Part shown: positions 24,459 to 63,023 of the stretch, one piece after another
Position numbering within the stretch: position 1 is the stretch's first letter
Layout: every line of letters begins with the position of its first letter
Source: Bradyrhizobium zhanjiangense
GTDB taxonomy: Bacteria; Pseudomonadota; Alphaproteobacteria; Rhizobiales; Xanthobacteraceae
Direction of reading: 5' to 3'
Assembly: GCF_004114935.1 (NCBI RefSeq)
Contig: NZ_CP022221.1
Coordinates: 744,001-808,000, forward strand
Length of the DNA stretch: 64,000 nt
Position numbers and translations under genes: made by a program
The notes under the pieces: model-generated
Told to the model about the DNA's origin: nothing
What the model saw: the letters and a program-made list of their open reading frames with translations, nothing else
Databases searched by the model: none

Positions 24459-27326
24459 CTACGCCACGCGGCGGACTGCGCTCAGCGTCTCGATGGTGCC
24501 GCCGACCTCGGCCGCCGGGCACGGCTTGCCGAAATAATAGCCCTGCACGGCGGTGCAGCCGCATTCGCGCACGAAGTCGAGTTGCTCGGCGGTCTCCACA
24601 CCCTCCGCCGTAGTCTCGACGCCGAGCACGGAGCCGAGGCTGGCGATGGTGCGGACGATGGCAACGCTTTCCGGGCTTTCGCCGAGCGTGCCGACGAAAG
24701 AGCGGTCGATCTTGATGCGGTCGAACGGAAATTTGCGCAAATAGCTCAGCGAGGAATAGCCGACGCCGAAATCGTCGAGGCTGACCCGCACGCCGAGTGC
24801 GCGGAGCTGGTGCAGGATCTCGATCGTCGCCTCGCTGTCGTCGAGCAGCGCCGTCTCGGTGACCTCGAGCTCGAGACGTTGTGGCGGCAGGCCGGCTTCC
24901 GCAAGTGCGCTCGTGACCATCGCCACCAGGCCGCGCGAGCGGAACTGCACCGGCGACAGGTTTACCGCGACGGTGCCCCCGGGCCAGGAGACGGCGGTCG
25001 CACAGGCGGTGCGCAGCACCCATTCGCCGATCGGGACGATCAGCCCGGTCTCCTCCGCGATCGGAATGAAATCGGCCGGCGAGACGAAGCCGCGCGAGGG
25101 ATGTTTCCAGCGCAACAGCGCTTCGAAGCCGGTGAGCTCGGAGTTGTCGAGCCGTACCTGCGGCTGGAACACGAGGTGGAATTCACGTGATTCCAACGCG
25201 CCGCGCAGATCCTGCTCCAGCGCGTGCCGGCTGCGCGCCTCCTCTTCCATCTCGGGCTCGAACAGCTGATAAGCGCCGCGTCCCTTGGCCTTGGCCTGGT
25301 AGAGGGCGAGGTCGGCGCATTTCATCAGTTCGTCGGCATCGAGCCCGTGATCGGGCGCGATCGCGATGCCGACGGAGACGCCGACATGGATCGACTGGCT
25401 TTCCAGCGGCGGCGGATGGCCGATGATCTCGACCAGGCGACGGGCGAGCTTTTCAGCCGCTTGTGGCTGCGGTCCGCGCTGGAGTACGGCAAACTCGTCG
25501 CCGCCGAGCCGCGCGACGGTATCATGCTCGCCGACATTCTCCTTTAGTCGCGCCGCAACCCAGCGCAGCAGGCGGTCGCCTGCGGCGTGGCCGAGGCGGT
25601 CGTTGACAGTCTTGAAATTGTCGAGGTCGAAATACAGCACGGCCATTGCGCCGCCGGCGATCGCGACATGGTTCAGCCCTTCACCCATCTTCTCGCGGAA
25701 CAGCGTGCGGTTGGGCAGGTCGGTCAACGAATCGTGGCGCGCCATGTGCGCGACGCGGGCTTGGGCCTTGTGGCGCTCGGTGACGTCCTCATAGGTGACG
25801 ACCCAGCCGCCAAGCTCCATCCGCTTGTGATTGAGCTTGATGATGCGGCCGTCGTTCAAATGGCGGTGCAGCGTGTGCTCGCCCTCGCGCAGCCTCTCGA
25901 CATAGTCGGCATAGAGCCGCGCGCCTGTGGTGTTCGGATCAATGCCCAGTTCGCAGCTATGCTCCATGATCTCGCGCATCGAGACGCCCGGTTTCACGAT
26001 CTCGGGCGACAGCCCGTACATCTCGATATAGCGGCGGTTGCAGACGATGATGCGCAGGCTCGAATCGAGCATGCACAGGCCCTGGCTCATGTTGTTCAGT
26101 GCGGCGTCGAAACGTCGATACTGCTCGCTCAGCTCCTCAATCGCGCGTTCGCGTTCGGTGATGTCCTCGTAGGTGGCGACGAAGCCGCCGTCTGGCTGCG
26201 CGCAGTAACGCACCGAGATCACGGAGCCATTGGACATGCGCCGTCGCATCGACGAGGAATCGCGGTTCGCAATCCTTGCGCTGGCGGCTTCCAGGAGCTG
26301 TTGCGGGCTGTATTCGGAAGCGAATGCGCCGTTCGCCATCGAACGCTCGATCAGCTCGGAAAGATGCGTGCCGGGCCGGGTCTCTTCGGGCGACAGCCGG
26401 TAGATCTTGCGGTAGTTTGTATTGCAGACGCGGAGCCGCATGTCGCTGTCGTAGAAGGCGAGTCCGTGCGCCATGTTCTCCAGCGCTGCATCGAGGATGA
26501 AGTTCTGCTGCCTCAGCGTCTCCTCGTATTGCAGCCGCTCGGTGACGTCTTCGTGCACCGTCACCCAGCCGCCGTCGGGCAGGAAGCGGGAGACCGCCTG
26601 CACCATCCGCCCGTCATAGCGCATCACCAGCAGGGTTTTTGCCTTCCTGGCGCGCACGTCGTCCAGCCTGGTGTCATGGAATTCATCGGCCGACATGCCC
26701 GGCAGGTTGCCGCGCGAAAGCCAGTGGTCGATGGCCGCGCTGTGCGTGACGCCCGGCTTCATGATCTCCGGGTCGAGGTTGTAGAGCTTCAGGAAACGTT
26801 CGTTGCAGACGACGACGCGGCTGTCGGCATCGTACATGATGAGGCCGTGCGACATGTTCGCGAGCGCGTGCTGGCTGCGCTCGGTCTGCACGCGCAATTC
26901 CGCCTCGAGCCGGGCGAGACGACTGACGTCGTCGCAGATCGTCATCCAGCCGCCGCCGGGGAGGGGCTTCAACTCGAGCGCCATGACGAGGCCGCTTGCA
27001 AGCCGCTGTTCGGTGCGGAATGGTTTGCCCGCTGCGATTTGCGCAATCCGCGCCGAATACAGCGCATCGAGCTCGTCCTGGGGGAAGTTCCCGCGTGTCG
27101 CGCTGTGGGCAAGCACCTCGCGATAGCTCGTGCCCACCCGCACGATATCGGCCGACATGTCGAACAGCGTGAGGTAGCGCTGATTGACCAGCACGATCCG
27201 GTTGTCGGCATCGTAGACGCAGACGCCCTGCTCCATGTGGTCGAGCGCAAGCTGGCCGAGCGCGATCAGGGCCGCGGGGGCCTGTTCGCGGTGTGCACCA
27301 TGCTCATTGTCGCAGGTCGACATCAT
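24459..27326 (-). CDS. Four-PAS GGDEF-EAL dual-domain c-di-GMP protein
   Basis: 955 aa, no membrane helices. Four consecutive PAS units, each beginning with an 'ALxxMxxGLxxYDxxxRxxxCNxRY'-like block (about 27-135, 153-262, 278-392, 406-515) and ending in 'xxEDVTER'. Then a GGDEF domain with an intact R-L-G-G-D-E-F (606-612) and an EAL domain with G-F-E-A-L-L-R-W (733-740), plus DDFGVGYSSLSYL and KIDRSFV. Both catalytic halves look active. The PAS repeats are mutually similar and probably arose by duplication; no heme-binding residue is obvious. The first of two adjacent ATGs is used. Lies 205 bp downstream of the tctC start on the same strand. Confidence 0.92.
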   Translation of the reverse strand: MMSTCDNEHGAHREQAPAALIALGQLALDHMEQGVCVYDADNRIVLVNQRYLTLFDMSADIVRVGTSYREVLAHSATRGNFPQDELDALYSARIAQIAAGKPFRTEQRLASGLVMALELKPLPGGGWMTICDDVSRLARLEAELRVQTERSQHALANMSHGLIMYDADSRVVVCNERFLKLYNLDPEIMKPGVTHSAAIDHWLSRGNLPGMSADEFHDTRLDDVRARKAKTLLVMRYDGRMVQAVSRFLPDGGWVTVHEDVTERLQYEETLRQQNFILDAALENMAHGLAFYDSDMRLRVCNTNYRKIYRLSPEETRPGTHLSELIERSMANGAFASEYSPQQLLEAASARIANRDSSSMRRRMSNGSVISVRYCAQPDGGFVATYEDITERERAIEELSEQYRRFDAALNNMSQGLCMLDSSLRIIVCNRRYIEMYGLSPEIVKPGVSMREIMEHSCELGIDPNTTGARLYADYVERLREGEHTLHRHLNDGRIIKLNHKRMELGGWVVTYEDVTERHKAQARVAHMARHDSLTDLPNRTLFREKMGEGLNHVAIAGGAMAVLYFDLDNFKTVNDRLGHAAGDRLLRWVAARLKENVGEHDTVARLGGDEFAVLQRGPQPQAAEKLARRLVEIIGHPPPLESQSIHVGVSVGIAIAPDHGLDADELMKCADLALYQAKAKGRGAYQLFEPEMEEEARSRHALEQDLRGALESREFHLVFQPQVRLDNSELTGFEALLRWKHPSRGFVSPADFIPIAEETGLIVPIGEWVLRTACATAVSWPGGTVAVNLSPVQFRSRGLVAMVTSALAEAGLPPQRLELEVTETALLDDSEATIEILHQLRALGVRVSLDDFGVGYSSLSYLRKFPFDRIKIDRSFVGTLGESPESVAIVRTIASLGSVLGVETTAEGVETAEQLDFVRECGCTAVQGYYFGKPCPAAEVGGTIETLSAVRRVA

Positions 27327-27529: not shown

Positions 27530-28405
27530 CTACGGCCCGTACAGCACGAGCTCCGTATCGGTGAGATCGGCAAGCTGTGGCCGATGCGGGCCCTTGAAAT
27601 ATTTGCGGCCGCGGCGCTCTGTGTAGAGGCCGATGAGGCCGGAAAGCGGGCTGTTGCAATCGACGGCCACCGAGATTTTGCCGAACCGCAGCAGCAGCCG
27701 GCCGATCCGGCCGGCGCAGGCGGCATATTCGGCGATGTTGCGGCAGTAGATTAGTTTCATCGCGGGCGGCGCGATGAAGCCGCGGCGGATGCGCACCGGT
27801 TGCAGGATGAAGGGGAACGTTCCCTGCGGCGTGCGGCAGACCAGGCTGAGGCAATTGTAGCGTGCATGACGCGTCAAGAGCTCGGTCTCTGTGTCGGAAA
27901 GCCCCTCGATCGCCTTGGCGTGCTGCGAGATCACCGCGATCTTGCTCCAGCGCGGGGCACGCGCCAGCGCGGGCACCGAGAAGAAGATGCCGCGGCAGTA
28001 ATCACGAAAGCCCTGCGTCTCGATGATGGGCCAGGTCCACGGCGCCGGGCTGATGTTGAGGTAAGTGACGTCCTTGTGCCGCTGCGCAATCTTGGTCAGC
28101 AGCGGCGCGTAGTTGCGATAGGCCGGATCGACATACCAGCTCGACAAATTGCACTGGATGGTAGTCTCTTCGCCGTTCTTGCGCGCCGTGTAGATCAGCA
28201 GCAGCACGCCGACCGGTGTGCCGTCATCCTCGAGCATGTAGCCGAAGCGCGGATAGCCCTCCGGCACGGTCCGGAAGGCCTGCCGGCGCAGGCCCTGGAT
28301 CCAATAGTCACGCGAGCGGCCGACGAAGCCGCGCGTCAGGAGGTCCGCGATGGCTTCGACATCGGACTCGGTGATTTCGCGGCATCGGACCTTGGTGTGG
28401 ATCAC
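27530..28405 (-). CDS. GNAT-like acyltransferase of the aminoacyl-carrier-protein cluster
   Basis: 291 aa. The opening VRCREITESDVEAIADLLTRGFVGRSRDYWIQGL and the following strand 'PRFGYMLEDDGTPVGVLLLIYT' look like a GNAT N-acetyltransferase half; a second half (about 150-290) is less familiar but contains 'ETQGFRDY', a typical GNAT late motif. Start set at the GTG 28405, 40 bases after the ligase stop; a CTG a little upstream is an alternative. Third gene in the acyl-CoA-dehydrogenase / ligase / acyltransferase run, so it may move the aminoacyl group from the carrier protein to an acceptor. That role is inference; the fold call is moderate. Confidence 0.72.
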   Translation of the reverse strand: MIHTKVRCREITESDVEAIADLLTRGFVGRSRDYWIQGLRRQAFRTVPEGYPRFGYMLEDDGTPVGVLLLIYTARKNGEETTIQCNLSSWYVDPAYRNYAPLLTKIAQRHKDVTYLNISPAPWTWPIIETQGFRDYCRGIFFSVPALARAPRWSKIAVISQHAKAIEGLSDTETELLTRHARYNCLSLVCRTPQGTFPFILQPVRIRRGFIAPPAMKLIYCRNIAEYAACAGRIGRLLLRFGKISVAVDCNSPLSGLIGLYTERRGRKYFKGPHRPQLADLTDTELVLYGP

Positions 28406-28445
28406 GCTCGTCTTGCCCGTGGAAATGATCAGCCTCGTGGTTTCG

Positions 28446-29426
28446 TTAGCGCCAGCCTTCGCCGTGGGCCTCGGCCGCAACATGCGGCTGCAGGCCCAGG
28501 ACGTCCCGTACCTTGGCGGGCCAGGCGGAAAGATCGGTGCCGTGGGTGTGGAACATGGCAACGGCCAGGCGGTCCATGCCGAAGGCAACGCAGCCGGTAT
28601 GGGCCGGCTCGCCATTGGCCTCCCTAATGTCCCAGGTCGTGCCGAAATGCTCGCGGTGATAGTTGAAGCTCATGCAGGCGGTCGGCTGCTCTTCCGAGCG
28701 CAGCGGGATCAGGAGCTCGAACTTCAGCTGCTGCTGTTTCTGGCTCACCGCCTTCATCTGGCCGACGCGGCCGAAGAAGGGATCGCTGGCATAGTCGACG
28801 CGGAAGGTGAGGCCGAGATCGCGCGCGATCGTCTGCGCGCGGACCATCCAGCGCTCGCGGAAGTCGGCGACGTCATCGGGGCTGCCGATGCAGACATATT
28901 CGCGCATCCGGAACGATTGCAGCCGGTCGAGATGCTTCGACGGCTCGCGGCGGAAGCAGTCGGCGGCGACGTCGAAGCGCAGACCGCCCTTCGGCAATTG
29001 GCCGCGGCTCGCCGCGATCGGGTAGACGGGATAGCAGGCGGCCGGCGACAGCACGAGGTCGGCCGGCGAGAGCGATGAGGTCCAGTCGCCGCCGGCATCG
29101 AAGCGGCTCACCGCGGCGTTGATCTCGCGTTCGGTGCCGTGCAGGCCGCAGACGCAGCCGAGCAGGTTCGGAAAGCTCTTGAGGTAGCCGGACTTCTCCA
29201 GCTGAGCCCGGCTCATCACCGGCGGAAAGCGCATCACCTCGGTTCCGGCCTCGCGATGGCCAGTGATCAGCGTGGCGAGCTTTTCGACGATGCCCTCATA
29301 GAGCGCGGTGCGGGCGTAGACCCCGTCCGAGCCCATGCGGTGGAACAGCTTGTCGGCGAGATGATCGAGCGGATCGATGATCTGCGGTGCGGTGTCGGGC
29401 GAATTGGGGAGGACGGCAATATTCAT
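28446..29426 (-). CDS. Amino acid:[carrier protein] ligase (truncated seryl-tRNA-synthetase homologue)
   Basis: 326-aa class II synthetase catalytic core without the tRNA-binding coiled coil. It activates an amino acid with ATP and loads it on the phosphopantetheine of a carrier protein. Length and active-site zinc ligands (Cys131 in SPAACYPVYP, Glu176 in FRMREYVC, Cys279 in HTGCVAFGMDR) match, residue for residue as I recall, the characterised Bradyrhizobium enzyme Bll0957, which prefers glycine. Class II motif 2 (FRMREY) and motif 3 (GMDRLAVAM) are visible. AGGAC precedes the ATG. The cognate carrier protein is the divergent gene at 31055. The end product of this pathway is not established to my knowledge. 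Confidence 0.93.
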   Translation of the reverse strand: MNIAVLPNSPDTAPQIIDPLDHLADKLFHRMGSDGVYARTALYEGIVEKLATLITGHREAGTEVMRFPPVMSRAQLEKSGYLKSFPNLLGCVCGLHGTEREINAAVSRFDAGGDWTSSLSPADLVLSPAACYPVYPIAASRGQLPKGGLRFDVAADCFRREPSKHLDRLQSFRMREYVCIGSPDDVADFRERWMVRAQTIARDLGLTFRVDYASDPFFGRVGQMKAVSQKQQQLKFELLIPLRSEEQPTACMSFNYHREHFGTTWDIREANGEPAHTGCVAFGMDRLAVAMFHTHGTDLSAWPAKVRDVLGLQPHVAAEAHGEGWR

Positions 29427-29482
29427 GGGTCGATGTCCTGCTATCTCAAAATTGTTCTTGTTGGTTCAGTCGCCAAGGCACC

Positions 29483-30700
29483 TTAGTCACGAAGGCTCAT
29501 TGGCACGCCGCTCATCAGCGTCGCTGTCGCGGCGTTGGCGAGAATACGGTCGTTGTTGATCATGATCGGCGACGACAGCACGTCGCGCAGGTGACGGCCC
29601 ATCGTGAATTCGCCGTCGTTGCGGTAGCCGGAAAGACCCGCGGTGCGCATCGCATGCATCACCGTCTCGACCGCGAGCTCGGAGGCCTGCACCTTCAAAA
29701 GCGTGATCGAGGACTGGAAGTCGAGCGAGCCGAGCGCGCGCTCGTCATGCTCAGCGCGGTCGAAAGCGTCGATGTTGGCAGCAATCAGCGCGCGCAGCTT
29801 GGCGAGCGACATCTTGGCGGCGGTGAAATGCGCCGCGGCCGGCGGCATTTGTCCGCCGGAGCTGCGGGCCGCCTTGCGGATGAAGGCCTGCGCACGGGTC
29901 ACCGCGGCGGCGGCAATGCCGGCCCAAGCCGACGACCAGCACAGATGCGCGAATGGCGTCATGGTCTGGGCGTGGATCTTGTCGTAGGATTCCGGGAAGA
30001 CGCGGTCGGCGGGGCAATCGACCTTCAGCTCGAAACCGGTCGAGCAAGTGCCGCGCATGCCGAGCGTTTCCCAGCCCAGCGTCCGCTTCAGCGAATAATC
30101 GTCCTTGGCGAGTGCCAGCAGTACTTGGTCGGAAGCGGCAGCGTCGGTGGCGCGGCGGGCGATGGTGACGAGGCCGTCGGCCTCGGCGCCGTAGGAGATG
30201 ACGGTGGCGTCGCGTACCAGCGACACGGTATCGCCGGCGTGATCGACGGCGGCGGCGCTGGCGCGGATGTTGCCGCCGTTCTGTCCTTCGGTGGTGGAGG
30301 AGGCGAGCAGCCACTGGTCGCGCGCGACCCGGCGCATCATGGTTTCCATCCAGGGAATGCCGTGGCCGTGCCTGACGACGCAGGCGACCTTGGTCTGGTG
30401 CATCGCGTAGATCATCGCGGTGGAAGCGCAGGCACGCCCGAGCGTGTAGCAGATATCGGTGACGTCGTAGATCGAAGCGCCGAAGCCGCCGAACTCGACC
30501 GGGATCATGACGCCAAGCAGTTTTTGCTCACGCGCGACCTCGAAAGCCGTGTGGGGGAAGCGGGCGTCGCGATCGACCCCGTCTGCATCGGCCGCTGCGG
30601 CAGCGGCGGTCCGGGCGGCACGCTCGATCAGGGAAGGACCCTGCTCGAGAAAGTTCGTCTGCGTTTCGTCGACAGTGAGGACTGCTTCACGCACGTTCAT
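29483..30700 (-). CDS. Acyl-CoA-dehydrogenase-fold flavoprotein of the carrier-protein cluster
   Basis: 405 aa, ACAD superfamily: helical N-terminus 'LLGVMIPVEFGGFGASIYDVTDICYTLGRAC', middle barrel 'LLASSTTEGQNGGNIRASAA', then 'LGMRGTCSTGFEL' (the usual GMRGT flavin-domain turn) and a helical C-terminus ending SSPIMINNDRIL. Neither usual catalytic Glu position looks occupied: no ER in the helix-G segment CWSSAWAGIA and no EGT/GGT near the end. Its substrate may be carrier-bound rather than CoA-bound, given the neighbours. GGAGGCGG precedes the ATG. First gene of the three-gene minus-strand unit, 56 bp before the ligase. Confidence 0.85.
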   Translation of the reverse strand: MNVREAVLTVDETQTNFLEQGPSLIERAARTAAAAAADADGVDRDARFPHTAFEVAREQKLLGVMIPVEFGGFGASIYDVTDICYTLGRACASTAMIYAMHQTKVACVVRHGHGIPWMETMMRRVARDQWLLASSTTEGQNGGNIRASAAAVDHAGDTVSLVRDATVISYGAEADGLVTIARRATDAAASDQVLLALAKDDYSLKRTLGWETLGMRGTCSTGFELKVDCPADRVFPESYDKIHAQTMTPFAHLCWSSAWAGIAAAAVTRAQAFIRKAARSSGGQMPPAAAHFTAAKMSLAKLRALIAANIDAFDRAEHDERALGSLDFQSSITLLKVQASELAVETVMHAMRTAGLSGYRNDGEFTMGRHLRDVLSSPIMINNDRILANAATATLMSGVPMSLRD

Positions 30701-31054
30701 GCTCGTCCGCCTCCGGTTTGCCGTTCGAGATCGCCGCCATCATTCGCGATGCCGCCAGCGATCCTCCGACCATCTTTGCTTGTGAGACGAGGCTACGGAT
30801 TTAATTCAAATTCGTCGATGAAATAGAGGGTAAACAAATCCCAATTCCGAACGAACAGTTAAGGTCCGGTTGTTTGCATCACCGGAATTTCCGCGGTCGC
30901 GTTAAGACTGGAAGAGGTCTGAATTTTAGTCAATCTGAGTCATCGTTTACTAAGAAAAGCGAAGTAACCCTCGCGCCCATTGCGGGATCGACTGGCCGTG
31001 CCCATCGTAGCCGGCAGTCCGGTCCGCCTCCGATAGACAGATGGGAATTTGCCG
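30701..31054. promoter_or_regulatory. Divergent control region of the aminoacyl-carrier-protein cluster
   Basis: 354 bp without a gene between the dehydrogenase-like gene and the carrier-protein gene. The middle (about 30790-30960) is markedly AT-richer than its surroundings (tttaattcaaattc, ttaagactgg, gaattttagtcaatc, gtttactaagaaaa), as expected for two divergent promoters. I could not assign a specific sigma-factor or operator motif. Confidence 0.5.
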
Positions 31055-31327
31055 ATGCAGGCCTTCGATACCGACATGCGCAGTCGCATCATCAAGCTGG
31101 TGAAGGGCATCCTCGAACAGAACTCGCTCACGGCGGACATCACGCCGTCGGCGAAGCTCGTGGACGTTGGCCTGACTTCGATGGACATGGTCAATCTGAT
31201 GCTCGGCGTCGAGGCCGAGTTCGACTTCACCATCCCGCAAGCCGAGATCACGCCGGAGAACTTCCAGTCCGTCGAAACGCTGGAGCGGATGGTCGCGACG
31301 CAGCTGCAGCCGGCAACGGCGGCTTAG
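31055..31327 (+). CDS. Aminoacyl carrier protein (acyl-carrier-protein-like)
   Basis: 90-aa acidic four-helix carrier protein. The phosphopantetheine site is Ser42 in DVGLTSMDMVNLML, where the usual DSL is replaced by TSM as in the characterised aminoacyl carrier proteins. Start at the ATG 31055 (MQAFDTDMRS), with a GGGA about 10 bases upstream; a TTG two codons earlier is possible. Divergent from the ligase unit, the arrangement expected for the Bll0957 partner. It should receive an amino acid (glycine likely) as a thioester. It is not the fatty-acid AcpP. Confidence 0.9.
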   Translation: MQAFDTDMRSRIIKLVKGILEQNSLTADITPSAKLVDVGLTSMDMVNLMLGVEAEFDFTIPQAEITPENFQSVETLERMVATQLQPATAA

Positions 31328-31598: not shown

Positions 31599-32474
31599 AT
31601 GACGCAGGCGGTATTGGGCATCATTGGCGGCTCCGGCATCTATGATCTGCCGGGCCTGGAGGGTGCGCGCGAAGAGGTGATCAAGAGCCCCTGGGGCGAG
31701 CCGTCCGCGCCCGTGCGGCGCGGCACTATGGCGGGCCTGCCGGTCGTGTTCCTGCCGCGGCACGACAAGGGCCATCGGCTGTCGCCCTCCGACATCAACT
31801 ACCGCGCCAATATCGACGTTCTGAAGCGGGCCGGCGTCACCGACCTGATCTCGCTATCGGCCTGCGGTTCCTTTAGGGAGGAACTGCCGCCCGGCACCTT
31901 CGTTCTCATCGATCAGTTCGTCGATCGCACCCACAAGCGCGAGAGCTCGTTCTTCGGCCGAGGCTGCGTCGCGCACGTGTCGATGGCGCATCCGGTTTCG
32001 CCGCGGCTGCGCATTCACCTGGCCGCAGCAGCCGAGGCCGAGGGCATCGCAATCGCGCGGACCGGTACCTATGTCTGCATGGAGGGGCCGCAATTCTCTA
32101 CTTATGCGGAAAGCATGACGTACAAGACGCTGGACTACTCGGTGATCGGCATGACCAACATGCCCGAGGCGAAGCTCGCGCGTGAGGCGGAGCTCTGTTA
32201 CGCTACCGTCGCGATGGTGACGGATTTCGATTGCTGGCATCCCGACCATGATGCGGTCACCGTGCAGGACATTATCCGCGTGCTGAACTCGAATGCCGAC
32301 AAGGCGAAAGCGCTGGTGGCGCGGCTGGCGAAGGATTTTCCGCGCGAGCATGAGCCGTGTCCGATCGGCTCGGATCGTGCGCTCGACACCGCGCTGATCA
32401 CGGCGCCCGAGGCGCGCGATCCCGAGCTTTTGAAGAAGCTCGATGCGGTGGCAGGGCGCATCCTGCGTGGTTGA
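31599..32474 (+). CDS. mtnP: S-methyl-5'-thioadenosine phosphorylase
   Basis: 291-aa trimeric purine-nucleoside phosphorylase family enzyme. It splits methylthioadenosine (from polyamine and acyl-homoserine-lactone synthesis) into adenine and methylthioribose-1-phosphate. Motifs: IGGSGIYDLPGLEG, FLPRHDKGHRLSPSDINYRAN, TGTYVCMEGPQFST (substrate pocket) and IGMTNMPEAKLAREAE. GGAG is five bases before the ATG. 18 bp upstream of mtnA, which uses its product, so the pair is an operon. Confidence 0.97.
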   Translation: MTQAVLGIIGGSGIYDLPGLEGAREEVIKSPWGEPSAPVRRGTMAGLPVVFLPRHDKGHRLSPSDINYRANIDVLKRAGVTDLISLSACGSFREELPPGTFVLIDQFVDRTHKRESSFFGRGCVAHVSMAHPVSPRLRIHLAAAAEAEGIAIARTGTYVCMEGPQFSTYAESMTYKTLDYSVIGMTNMPEAKLAREAELCYATVAMVTDFDCWHPDHDAVTVQDIIRVLNSNADKAKALVARLAKDFPREHEPCPIGSDRALDTALITAPEARDPELLKKLDAVAGRILRG

Positions 32475-32492
32475 GACGAAAGGCAGAATGCC

Positions 32493-33599
32493 ATGAAGGT
32501 CGACGGCAAGCATTTTCGCAGCATCTGGCGTGAGCGTGACGGCTGGTCGGTCGGCGCGATCGACCAACGCAGGCTGCCCCACGAGTTCGTCATTGCGAAG
32601 CTGACGTCATGCGAAGACGCGGCAGTCGCCATCCGCGACATGCTGGTGCGCGGCGCGCCGCTGATCGGCGCCACCGCGACTTACGGCATGGCGCTCGCGA
32701 TGCGCGAGGACGCCTCCGACGCCGGCCTGAAGCGTGCCTATGAGACGCTCGTCGTGGCGCGGCCGACCGCGATCAATCTGAAGTGGGCGCTAGACGAGAT
32801 GCGCGCGGCGCTGGCGCCGATCGATCCGGTCGAACGGGCGGAGGCGGCCTACGCGCGTGCCGACGAGATCGTCGAACAGGACGTCGAGATCAACCGCGGC
32901 ATCGCCGGCAATGGCCTGAAGCTGATCGAGGCGATTGCGGCGAAGAAGCCGGGCGAGGTGATCAATGTCCTGACTCATTGCAACGCCGGCTGGCTTGCGA
33001 CGGTCGACTGGGGCACGGCGACGGCGCCGATCTATCTCGCGCATGAGCGCGGCATCAAGGTTCATGTCTGGGTCGACGAGACCCGTCCGCGCAACCAGGG
33101 CGCCTCGCTCACGGCCTGGGAGCTGGGCCATCACGGCGTGCCGCACACGGTGATCCCGGACAATACTGGCGGCCATCTGATGCAGCACGGCATGGTCGAT
33201 CTCGCCATCGTCGGCACCGACCGCGTCGCCGCCAATGGCGATGTCTGCAACAAGATCGGCACCTATCTGAAGGCGCTCGCCGCGCATGATAATGGTGTGC
33301 CGTTCTACGTTGCGCTGCCGTCGCCGACGATCGACTTCGCCGTTCATGATGGCATCCGCGACATCCCAATCGAGCAGCGCAGTGGCGTGGAGGTCACTGA
33401 CATGACCGGCCGCACCGCGGACGGCAGGCTCGAGACGGTTCGCATCGTGCCGGAGGGATCGCCCGTCGCGAACTATGCGTTCGACGTAACGCCGGCGCGT
33501 CTCGTCACCGGCCTCATCACCGAGCGTGGCGTGCTGAAGCCCGACCGCGCATCGCTGGCGGCGGCGTTTCCGGAGCGGATCGCCGCCGCGGCGGAATAG
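32493..33599 (+). CDS. mtnA: S-methyl-5-thioribose-1-phosphate isomerase
   Basis: 368-aa isomerase converting methylthioribose-1-phosphate to the ribulose form, second step of methionine salvage here. The catalytic Cys lies in [17 protein letters not shown] and the catalytic Asp in [20 protein letters not shown], both intact. [20 protein letters not shown] is the N-terminal phosphate loop; eIF2B-like fold. Later salvage genes (mtnB, C, D or the shunt) are not in the window, so the route from here is unknown. Confidence 0.97.
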
Positions 33600-60587: not shown

Positions 60588-61724
60588 ATGAAGAGCCCGT
60601 TCTATACCGCCGAGCACGATGCCTTCCGCGAAATGATGCGCCGCTTTGTCGAGAAGGAGATTACGCCCTTCGCTCATGAGTGGGACGAGGCCGGTGAATT
60701 CCCGCGCGCGCTCTATCGCAAGGCGGCCGCTATCGGCCTGTTGGGGCTGGGATTCCCCGAGGAATATGGCGGCATCGCCGCCGACCAGTTCATGAAGATC
60801 GTGGCGAGCCAGGAGCTCGCACAGGCCGGCGCCGGCGGTGTCAGCGCCAGCCTGATGAGCCACACCATCGGCTCGCCGCCGATCGCCCGGGCGGCTCGCC
60901 CCGAGGTGAGGGCACGCGTGCTGCCGCAGGTGCTATCAGGCGAAAAGATTTCCGCCCTCGCGATCACCGAGCCGGGCGGCGGCTCCGATGTCGCGAACCT
61001 GCGCACCCGAGCGCGGCGCGACGCCGATCACTACGTCGTGAGCGGCGAGAAGACCTTCATCACCTCTGGCGTGCGAGCCGATTATCTGACCGTTGCGGTG
61101 CGTACCGGCGGCGAGGGCGCCGGTGGTGTCAGCCTGCTCCTGATCGAAGGCAACACGCCCGGCCTGTCGCGCACCAAGCTGAAGAAGATGGGCTGGTGGG
61201 CCTCCGATACCGCGACGCTACATTTCGACGCCTGCCGCGTGCCCGCCGAGAATCTGATCGGCGAGGAAGGTCAGGGCTTCAAGATCATCATGCAGAACTT
61301 CAACAGCGAGCGCATGGGCATGGCCGCGAGCTGCACCGCCTTCGCCCGCGTCTGTCTCGATGAGGCGATCGCCTACGCCAAGGAGCGCAAGACGTTCGGC
61401 AAGCCGCTGGCCCAGCATCAGGTGATCCGCCACAAGATCGTCGACATGGCGCAGAAGGTCGCGGCTTCGCAAGCGATGCTGGAGATGCTGGCCTGGCGGC
61501 TGGAGCAGGGCGAAAGCCCGGTCGCTGAAATCTGCATGATGAAGAATCAGGCGACGCAGACCATGGCGTTCTGCGCCTCGGAAGCCGTGCAAATCTTCGG
61601 CGGCGCCGGCTTCATGCGTGGCATCAAGGCCGAGCGCATCTACCGCGAGGTCAAGGTCAACGCCATCGGCGGCGGCACCGAGGAGATCATGAAGGATCTG
61701 GCTTCGAGGCAGATGGGGTTGTGA
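60588..61724 (+). CDS. Acyl-CoA dehydrogenase
   Basis: 378-aa FAD flavoprotein. Motifs: LAITEPGGGSDVANLRTRA (substrate/FAD loop), KTFITSGVRADYLTVAV, RTKLKKMGWWASDTATLHFDACRVP and the C-terminal IYREVKVNAIGGGTEEIM. The usual C-terminal catalytic Glu of medium-chain enzymes is Gly in IGGGT; Glu in NSERMGM occupies the isovaleryl-CoA-dehydrogenase position, which probably is the base. ATG at 60588; a palindromic repeat lies between it and a second, related gene. Substrate chain length not inferable. Confidence 0.93.
   Translation: MKSPFYTAEHDAFREMMRRFVEKEITPFAHEWDEAGEFPRALYRKAAAIGLLGLGFPEEYGGIAADQFMKIVASQELAQAGAGGVSASLMSHTIGSPPIARAARPEVRARVLPQVLSGEKISALAITEPGGGSDVANLRTRARRDADHYVVSGEKTFITSGVRADYLTVAVRTGGEGAGGVSLLLIEGNTPGLSRTKLKKMGWWASDTATLHFDACRVPAENLIGEEGQGFKIIMQNFNSERMGMAASCTAFARVCLDEAIAYAKERKTFGKPLAQHQVIRHKIVDMAQKVAASQAMLEMLAWRLEQGESPVAEICMMKNQATQTMAFCASEAVQIFGGAGFMRGIKAERIYREVKVNAIGGGTEEIMKDLASRQMGL

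Positions 61725-61857: not shown

Positions 61858-63023
<1,166 letters not shown>

Follow-up and report, generated by a model that had tools for sequence, protein, structure and literature searches.

Four neighbouring genes of Bradyrhizobium zhanjiangense, which encode a GNAT-fold transferase, an amino acid:[carrier protein] ligase, a flavoprotein with the acyl-CoA-dehydrogenase fold and a carrier protein, form one functional unit. It belongs to a more widespread bacterial pathway, of which it is a version with another enzyme substituted at the final transfer step. They lie at positions 27530–31327 of a stretch of 64,000 nucleotides (the window; contig NZ_CP022221.1 of RefSeq assembly GCF_004114935.1, positions 744,001 to 808,000) on the single chromosome of 9.34 Mb that carries the locus. 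We put at roughly 0.45 the probability that in this unit the ligase loads the carrier, the flavoprotein oxygenates the group held there and the GNAT-fold protein transfers the product to an amine. Spelled out, the ligase would activate glycine (perhaps alanine) and load it onto the stand-alone carrier; the flavoprotein would oxidise the carrier-bound aminoacyl group, most likely by N-hydroxylation of the amino nitrogen of glycyl-S-carrier; and the tandem-GNAT protein would move the modified group to an amine, perhaps that of an amino sugar. In a sister clade, a papain-like DUF1839 protein would fill the same transfer slot. A sequence-only reading of the window had already proposed loading, flavin-dependent modification and transfer, and this order is still the best reading: the identities of ligase and carrier and the existence of the unit are borne out, whereas the modification and transfer steps are ones that we infer. 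That logic was also partly anticipated, since a note of 2010 on the DUF1839 form predicted an aminoacyl modification, probably a monooxygenation, followed by transfer to an amino sugar (PMC2922099).

The unit is held together across the genus. The ligase occurs in 76 of 117 Bradyrhizobium genomes drawn evenly from a larger group, and these 76 contain the flavoprotein in 75 cases, a close GNAT relative in 75 and the carrier in 74, as against 0, 2 and 3 among the 41 ligase-free genomes (flavoprotein matches being accepted up to an E value of 1e-80 and three distant GNAT matches being left out). Because the GNAT gene of the two ligase-free genomes is a fragment in one (G001) and interrupted by a stop in the other (G048), and both still have the carrier gene, these copies look like remnants. 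Of the 90 ligase matches, 88 have a GNAT gene at a distance of 6 kb or less, 71 of them within 400 bp and 17 at 0.4–6 kb, four of these 17 GNAT genes being fragments; one of the two matches that have none (G010, locus L049) is of the DUF1839 form. In the window genome itself, the ligase and a close GNAT protein each occur once. Such conservation means that the tight block noted by the sequence-only reading, whose four genes are all where it had placed them, is more than a chance arrangement. Within Bradyrhizobium the flavoprotein and the acyltransferase do stay beside the ligase, which agrees with that reading. Outside the genus the flavoprotein stays and the GNAT protein is usually replaced by DUF1839, so that the four-gene set is limited to the GNAT branch and some loci of other genera (L095, L098, L099 and L101). 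In a B. diazoefficiens phaR mutant at 0.5% oxygen, RNA of bll0957 and bll0958, the homologues of the ligase and flavoprotein genes, is reported to be up 3.0-fold each, with the proteins also increased (PMC10888616); this joint rise supports co-regulation of the two genes and indicates that their products are made. For locus tags other than these two, no function was found in the open-licence literature.

How the unit relates to its relatives became apparent from 120 ligase loci of wider origin, consisting of 80 named GTDB loci and 40 chosen from order- and phylum-wide searches. The 80 are the best of at least 575 confirmed candidates found with an Azospirillum-led ligase alignment and are biased to the DUF1839 type; 77 of them contain DUF1839, 75 the flavoprotein and none a GNAT gene. 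The 40 chosen loci comprise 29 with DUF1839, flavoprotein, carrier and a GH2 gene, five with GNAT, flavoprotein and carrier, two with neither partner but with the flavoprotein, and four distant proteins resembling seryl-tRNA synthetase (SerRS) without any partner. Taken together, and with the same bias, the 120 loci contain DUF1839 in 106 cases, GNAT in five and both in none, while carrier, flavoprotein and ligase occur jointly in about 109. In a maximum-likelihood tree of 56 ligases, all 12 GNAT-linked sequences fall into one branch of 14 (support 100/99), whose other two members have neither partner, and the 38 DUF1839-linked sequences fall into a separate branch of 41 (98/89). As judged from this mutual exclusion and the separate ligase branches, the putative transfer slot is swapped, with GNAT standing in for DUF1839 on a constant carrier–flavoprotein–ligase core. 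A constant core with a changing downstream module is what would be expected if the role of the core is to ready an aminoacyl group on the carrier and that of the third gene is to transfer it. Three loci weigh against so simple a picture: L144 and L175, two related Rhizobiales loci, have ligase and carrier without flavoprotein, DUF1839 or GNAT, and L148 holds the ligase only.

A close relative is the Atu2574/DUF1839-type cluster, which has the same core and for which loading, modification and transfer had been predicted (PMC2922099). Its transferase is the papain-like DUF1839 protein, accompanied by GH2 and often by an alpha/beta hydrolase downstream, whereas in the window the GNAT-fold protein stands in its place, the carrier gene is divergent and GH2 is lacking; a DUF1839 gene is absent from the window locus, where GNAT occupies its position, and was rejected as a component of it. 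DUF1839 is described as papain-like in fold, with a Cys-(Thr/Ser)-His triad, and as part of a superfamily that also contains BtrH, an acyl carrier protein:aminoglycoside acyltransferase (PMC10318531). A further version of the core, from a Gram-positive bacterium, is found on a Priestia megaterium plasmid (L062:4097-12644), where AcpS is also present and the genes after the core encode a transporter, proteins of the ATP-grasp and alpha/beta hydrolase types, and a permease and a racemase for alanine; a scan of genome contigs with the Priestia ligase alone as query found no relative.

The loading step is the firmest part of the pathway. Over its whole length the ligase is near-identical to Bll0957 (PDB 3mey; E 3.6e-217), and it scores 482.8 bits against NCBIfam NF005479 'amino acid--[acyl-carrier-protein] ligase', above the cut-off of 357. 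Cys131, Glu176 and Cys279, the SerRS-like active-site set singled out by the sequence-only reading, are invariant in all 56 non-redundant ligases and presumably bind zinc. The carrier matches 'Aminoacyl carrier protein 1' (PDB 4h2s chain C; E 1.7e-48) and exceeds the PF00550 cut-off (29.4 against 20.8 bits), while staying under that of NCBIfam NF005480 (49.9 against 72 bits). Its serine, likewise named in that reading, is indeed residue 42 when counted from the ATG at 31055 and is invariant in all nine aligned carriers. Ligase and carrier are practically the same proteins as Bll0957, or amino acid:carrier protein ligase 1, and its carrier. Work on Bll0957 in PNAS in 2010, which PMC2922099 cites, is said to have found amino acid loading onto the carrier with a preference for glycine, perhaps also alanine, and to have dealt with loading only. 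Given the likeness of both proteins and the specificity reported for Bll0957, it is almost certain that glycine is the residue placed on the carrier here; that this residue is then oxidised on the carrier and passed on to an acceptor is very probable.

What happens to the loaded group depends on whether the flavoprotein is a dehydrogenase or an oxygenase. Its structure model (pLDDT, the predicted local distance difference test, 93.5) has the acyl-CoA-dehydrogenase fold, and Pfam PF02771 and PF00441 are matched above their cut-offs (45.1 and 30.2 bits). The fold claimed by the sequence-only reading therefore stands, but the catalytic and flavin adenine dinucleotide (FAD) marks of acyl-CoA dehydrogenases are missing and the protein is more monooxygenase-like. 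We compared 117 family members, near-copies included, with 17 dehydrogenases of the same genome (open reading frames matching the family profile, from 30 loci with 56 PF00441 matches) and with six oxygenase-type proteins, also from this genome, for which PF08028 is a better match than PF00441 (seven loci, of which L241 was filtered out) and whose best matches are all oxygenase families (HsaA, HPAH, DszC, SfnB). An acidic base at either known position is present in none of the family, in 16 of the 17 dehydrogenases and in none of the six oxygenase-type proteins; the family has Ala, Ser or Thr at 251 and Ile or Val at 381. The motif R..F[GND], which we take to serve the FAD adenine, shows the same distribution within the aligned region (0/117, 16/17 and 0/6), and was counted in place of the simpler pattern R.F[GNS], which proved uninformative (21/117 and 3/17). 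Trp210, together with a GMR segment, is found throughout the family and in none of the dehydrogenases, and all six oxygenase-type proteins have the Trp, as do DnmZ, KijD3 and 5z8t in alignments. The top Foldseek matches are the flavin mononucleotide monooxygenases TdsC and DszC. In view of the base and motif counts a plain acyl-CoA dehydrogenase was rejected, and so was a prolyl-carrier dehydrogenase, as the score for NCBIfam NF045652 is 26.1 bits where 650 would be required. The missing base, the missing FAD-adenine motif and the monooxygenase-like positions together favour oxygenation over desaturation, and with modest confidence we propose that the protein works like an oxygenase. Since glycine, the substrate that Bll0957 reportedly prefers, has no beta carbon, ordinary desaturation is impossible for it, and this leaves oxygenation or Cα–N oxidation.

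It is just this second route that a true dehydrogenase or oxidase could take, turning glycyl-S-carrier into an imine or, with alanine, alanyl-S-carrier into a dehydroalanyl group by means of another base such as His252. This residue is invariant in all 117 members, at a position where the dehydrogenases of the same genome mostly have Arg, and His101, Glu138, Trp255 and Trp259 are likewise invariant or nearly so. Enzymes of the same fold are described as dehydrogenating carrier-bound groups, namely CaeB1/ColB1 acting on cysteinyl-peptidyl carrier protein (PMC8149447) and AzsF acting on a glycine-like hydrazinoacetyl group (PMC10445470); CaeB1/ColB1 and the prolyl-acyl carrier protein dehydrogenase (PDB 7xp7, 4irn, 6cxt) resemble the flavoprotein in fold and in having carrier-tethered amino acids as substrates, but are dehydrogenases. 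CaeB1/ColB1 and AzsF serve the main reading as well, as precedents for work by such a fold on amino acids held by a carrier. The alanine permease and racemase beside the Priestia core would suit an alanyl substrate. Several observations also count against oxygenation itself: VIA-align places dehydrogenases first, with all rows tied; in the tree the flavoprotein forms a third clade nearer to the dehydrogenases (95/78); PF08028 is not matched, and against the NCBIfam models SfnB and DszC the flavoprotein scores 60.5 and 41.2 bits, with cut-offs of 430.9 and 850. Among the part of the cluster neighbours that was scanned and classified, no flavin reductase was recognised. Filing the protein as a group D flavin monooxygenase was rejected, as the motif marks fit but the profile cut-offs and the tree do not. 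With DszC/TdsC and the nitrososynthases KijD3 and DnmZ it shares the fold, the Trp with a GMR-like segment and the lack of both base and FAD-adenine motif, but it sits in a separate clade and reaches no oxygenase NCBIfam cut-off; to our knowledge, the substrates of those enzymes are not carrier-bound glycine. Given the absent acid at the known base positions, the absent R..F[GND] and the oxygenase-type Trp210, we consider a dehydrogenase rather unlikely, if the most serious competitor to oxygenation.

For the transfer step, the GNAT-like character claimed by the sequence-only reading is upheld by a confident structure model (pLDDT 91.8) with a tandem GNAT fold, whose whole-length matches are glucosamine N-acetyltransferases, Eis and NMT, but not by profiles: neither Pfam, at E 0.01, nor NCBIfam gives a match, the N-terminal part gives a weak profile match at E 0.0045, and a search of solved structures with the sequence alone returned chance-level matches only. 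The length from the GTG start equals that of many of the closest homologues. Such a protein might also be an N-acyltransferase that draws on acyl-CoA to cap an amine, either that of the amino acid or that of the product, with the release enzyme encoded elsewhere. Database homologues are indeed annotated 'acyl-CoA acyltransferase', the two AMP ligases of the type-B loci described below could make an acyl donor, and the azaserine/triacsin pathway offers a precedent, in which AzsS, of the N-acetyltransferase family, is reported to succinylate free hydrazinoacetic acid (PMC10445470). According to the same source, that AzsF–AzsQ–AzsP–AzsS system resembles the window unit in combining a free-standing carrier protein, an acyl-CoA-dehydrogenase-fold enzyme acting on a glycine-like carrier-bound group and an N-acetyltransferase-family protein, but it is loaded by an AMP-dependent synthetase rather than an aminoacyl-tRNA-synthetase-like ligase, its AzsF step is a dehydrogenation and the roles of the acetyltransferases differ. 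What makes acyl-CoA use improbable in our view is that the pyrophosphate-binding loop R/Q-x-x-G-x-G/A is altered to R102-x-x-A105-x-L107 in most ligase-linked members (Ala105 in 52/52 and Leu107 in 77%, sequences with fewer than 240 aligned residues being excluded), that GNAT takes the place of DUF1839, and that in all five proteins scanned a full-length GNAT relative comes straight after a carrier domain in the same chain. Other relatives adjoin polysaccharide genes. A LuxI-like synthase, which would transfer the aminoacyl group onto S-adenosylmethionine, is suggested by genes for an S-methyl-5'-thioadenosine phosphorylase (MTAP)-like protein and an MtnA-like protein of the IF-2B family (31599-33599), which follow the carrier gene in the window as well as in L045 and L083 and could recycle the by-product. 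MTAP, however, is present in 115 of the 117 genomes regardless of the ligase and does not adjoin the ligase in other GNAT-type loci, and the whole-length fold matches are tandem GNATs. MTAP being a housekeeping gene of the genus, its adjacency to the carrier gene appears incidental, and S-adenosylmethionine use is largely refuted and extremely improbable. Transfer from the carrier to an amine is thus the role that we prefer for the GNAT-fold protein.

A richer form of the unit, the type-B cluster, occurs at five Bradyrhizobium loci (L041-L044 and L060) and in other families of the order (L098, L101 and in part L099 and L102, the last without GNAT). Judging by Pfam domains, folds and coordinates from one or two representatives each, it joins carrier, flavoprotein, ligase and GNAT with an O-acetylhomoserine-sulfhydrylase-like pyridoxal phosphate enzyme, a MetA-like acyltransferase, a class-IV aminotransferase and a long AMP ligase, often together with a second AMP ligase and a FabG-like reductase. 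None of these extra genes is found near the window locus. They would speak for a small molecule built on a homoserine-like amino acid, rather than a sugar, as the product of this branch. In four genomes (G058, G068, G110 and G023) the type-B GNAT gene is fragmentary while the ligase is kept, a sign of decay of the cluster.

The layout of the window locus is given in table 1; open reading frames were called with a home-made GC3 rule, by which small genes could be missed. Flavoprotein, ligase and GNAT genes follow each other in this order on the minus strand with gaps of 56 bp and then 40 bp, and the carrier gene diverges from them across a shared intergenic region, an arrangement seen again in the other GNAT-type loci. 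Next to the GNAT gene, as in most type-A loci examined, lies a gene for a 955-aa protein with four PAS_7, a GGDEF and an EAL domain (24459-27326, minus strand). Two further genes, on the plus strand at about 61269-61715 and 62542-62982, encode ordinary acyl-CoA dehydrogenases (PF00441) in which the acidic base is present.

Table 1. Features of the four-gene locus (window positions) and carrier–GNAT fusions at other loci (positions preceded by the locus).
Feature	Position	Strand	Remarks
GNAT-fold (tandem GNAT) acyltransferase	27530..28405	-	291 aa; GTG start at 28405 (most likely), stop at 27530; proposed transfer step
Amino acid:[carrier protein] ligase	28446..29426	-	326 aa; near-identical to Bll0957; carrier loading
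Acyl-CoA-dehydrogenase-fold flavoprotein, Bll0958 homologue	29483..30700	-	405 aa; monooxygenase-like sequence marks; proposed oxidation step
Intergenic region between the divergent flavoprotein and carrier genes	30701..31054	.	354 bp
Aminoacyl carrier protein	31055..31327	+	90 aa; ATG at 31055; predicted phosphopantetheine Ser42
Unlinked Bradyrhizobium fusions of a carrier domain with a GNAT relative	L045:15163-18321, L046:5658-9011, L047:3003-6173, L048:5899-9078, L043:16047-17927		in four, preceded by an adenylation domain

A search of the open-licence literature, subscription journals being outside its scope, turned up no paper on the GNAT form. What the present analysis adds is the exchange of partners, the counts of co-occurrence and the assignment of the GNAT protein to the tandem type, together with the fusions to carrier domains, the type-B cluster and the argument from single residues against classing the flavoprotein as a plain dehydrogenase. 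At a larger scale, these genes might belong to a widespread module outside non-ribosomal peptide synthetases, in which a ligase derived from aminoacyl-tRNA synthetases charges a free carrier with glycine, an enzyme of the dehydrogenase fold turned N-oxygenase gives an N-hydroxyglycyl group (or oxime) there and interchangeable transferases, i.e. GNAT in Bradyrhizobium, papain-like DUF1839 in many Alpha- and Betaproteobacteria and perhaps ATP-grasp in Priestia, deliver it to lineage-specific acceptors, generating undescribed conjugates of oxidised glycine; in this full form we regard the idea as speculative and on the whole unlikely.

The structure of the ligase and its loading reaction have been known for years without a product. 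The exchange of partners on the same core suggests that the core makes a carrier-bound intermediate which the third gene uses, so that mass spectrometry of the carrier, in an assay of just four proteins, should reveal the chemistry directly. The evidence on the flavoprotein makes it worth seeking the insertion of oxygen there, and not only the loss of hydrogen, and the type-B clusters contribute extra enzymes that could help to deduce the product.

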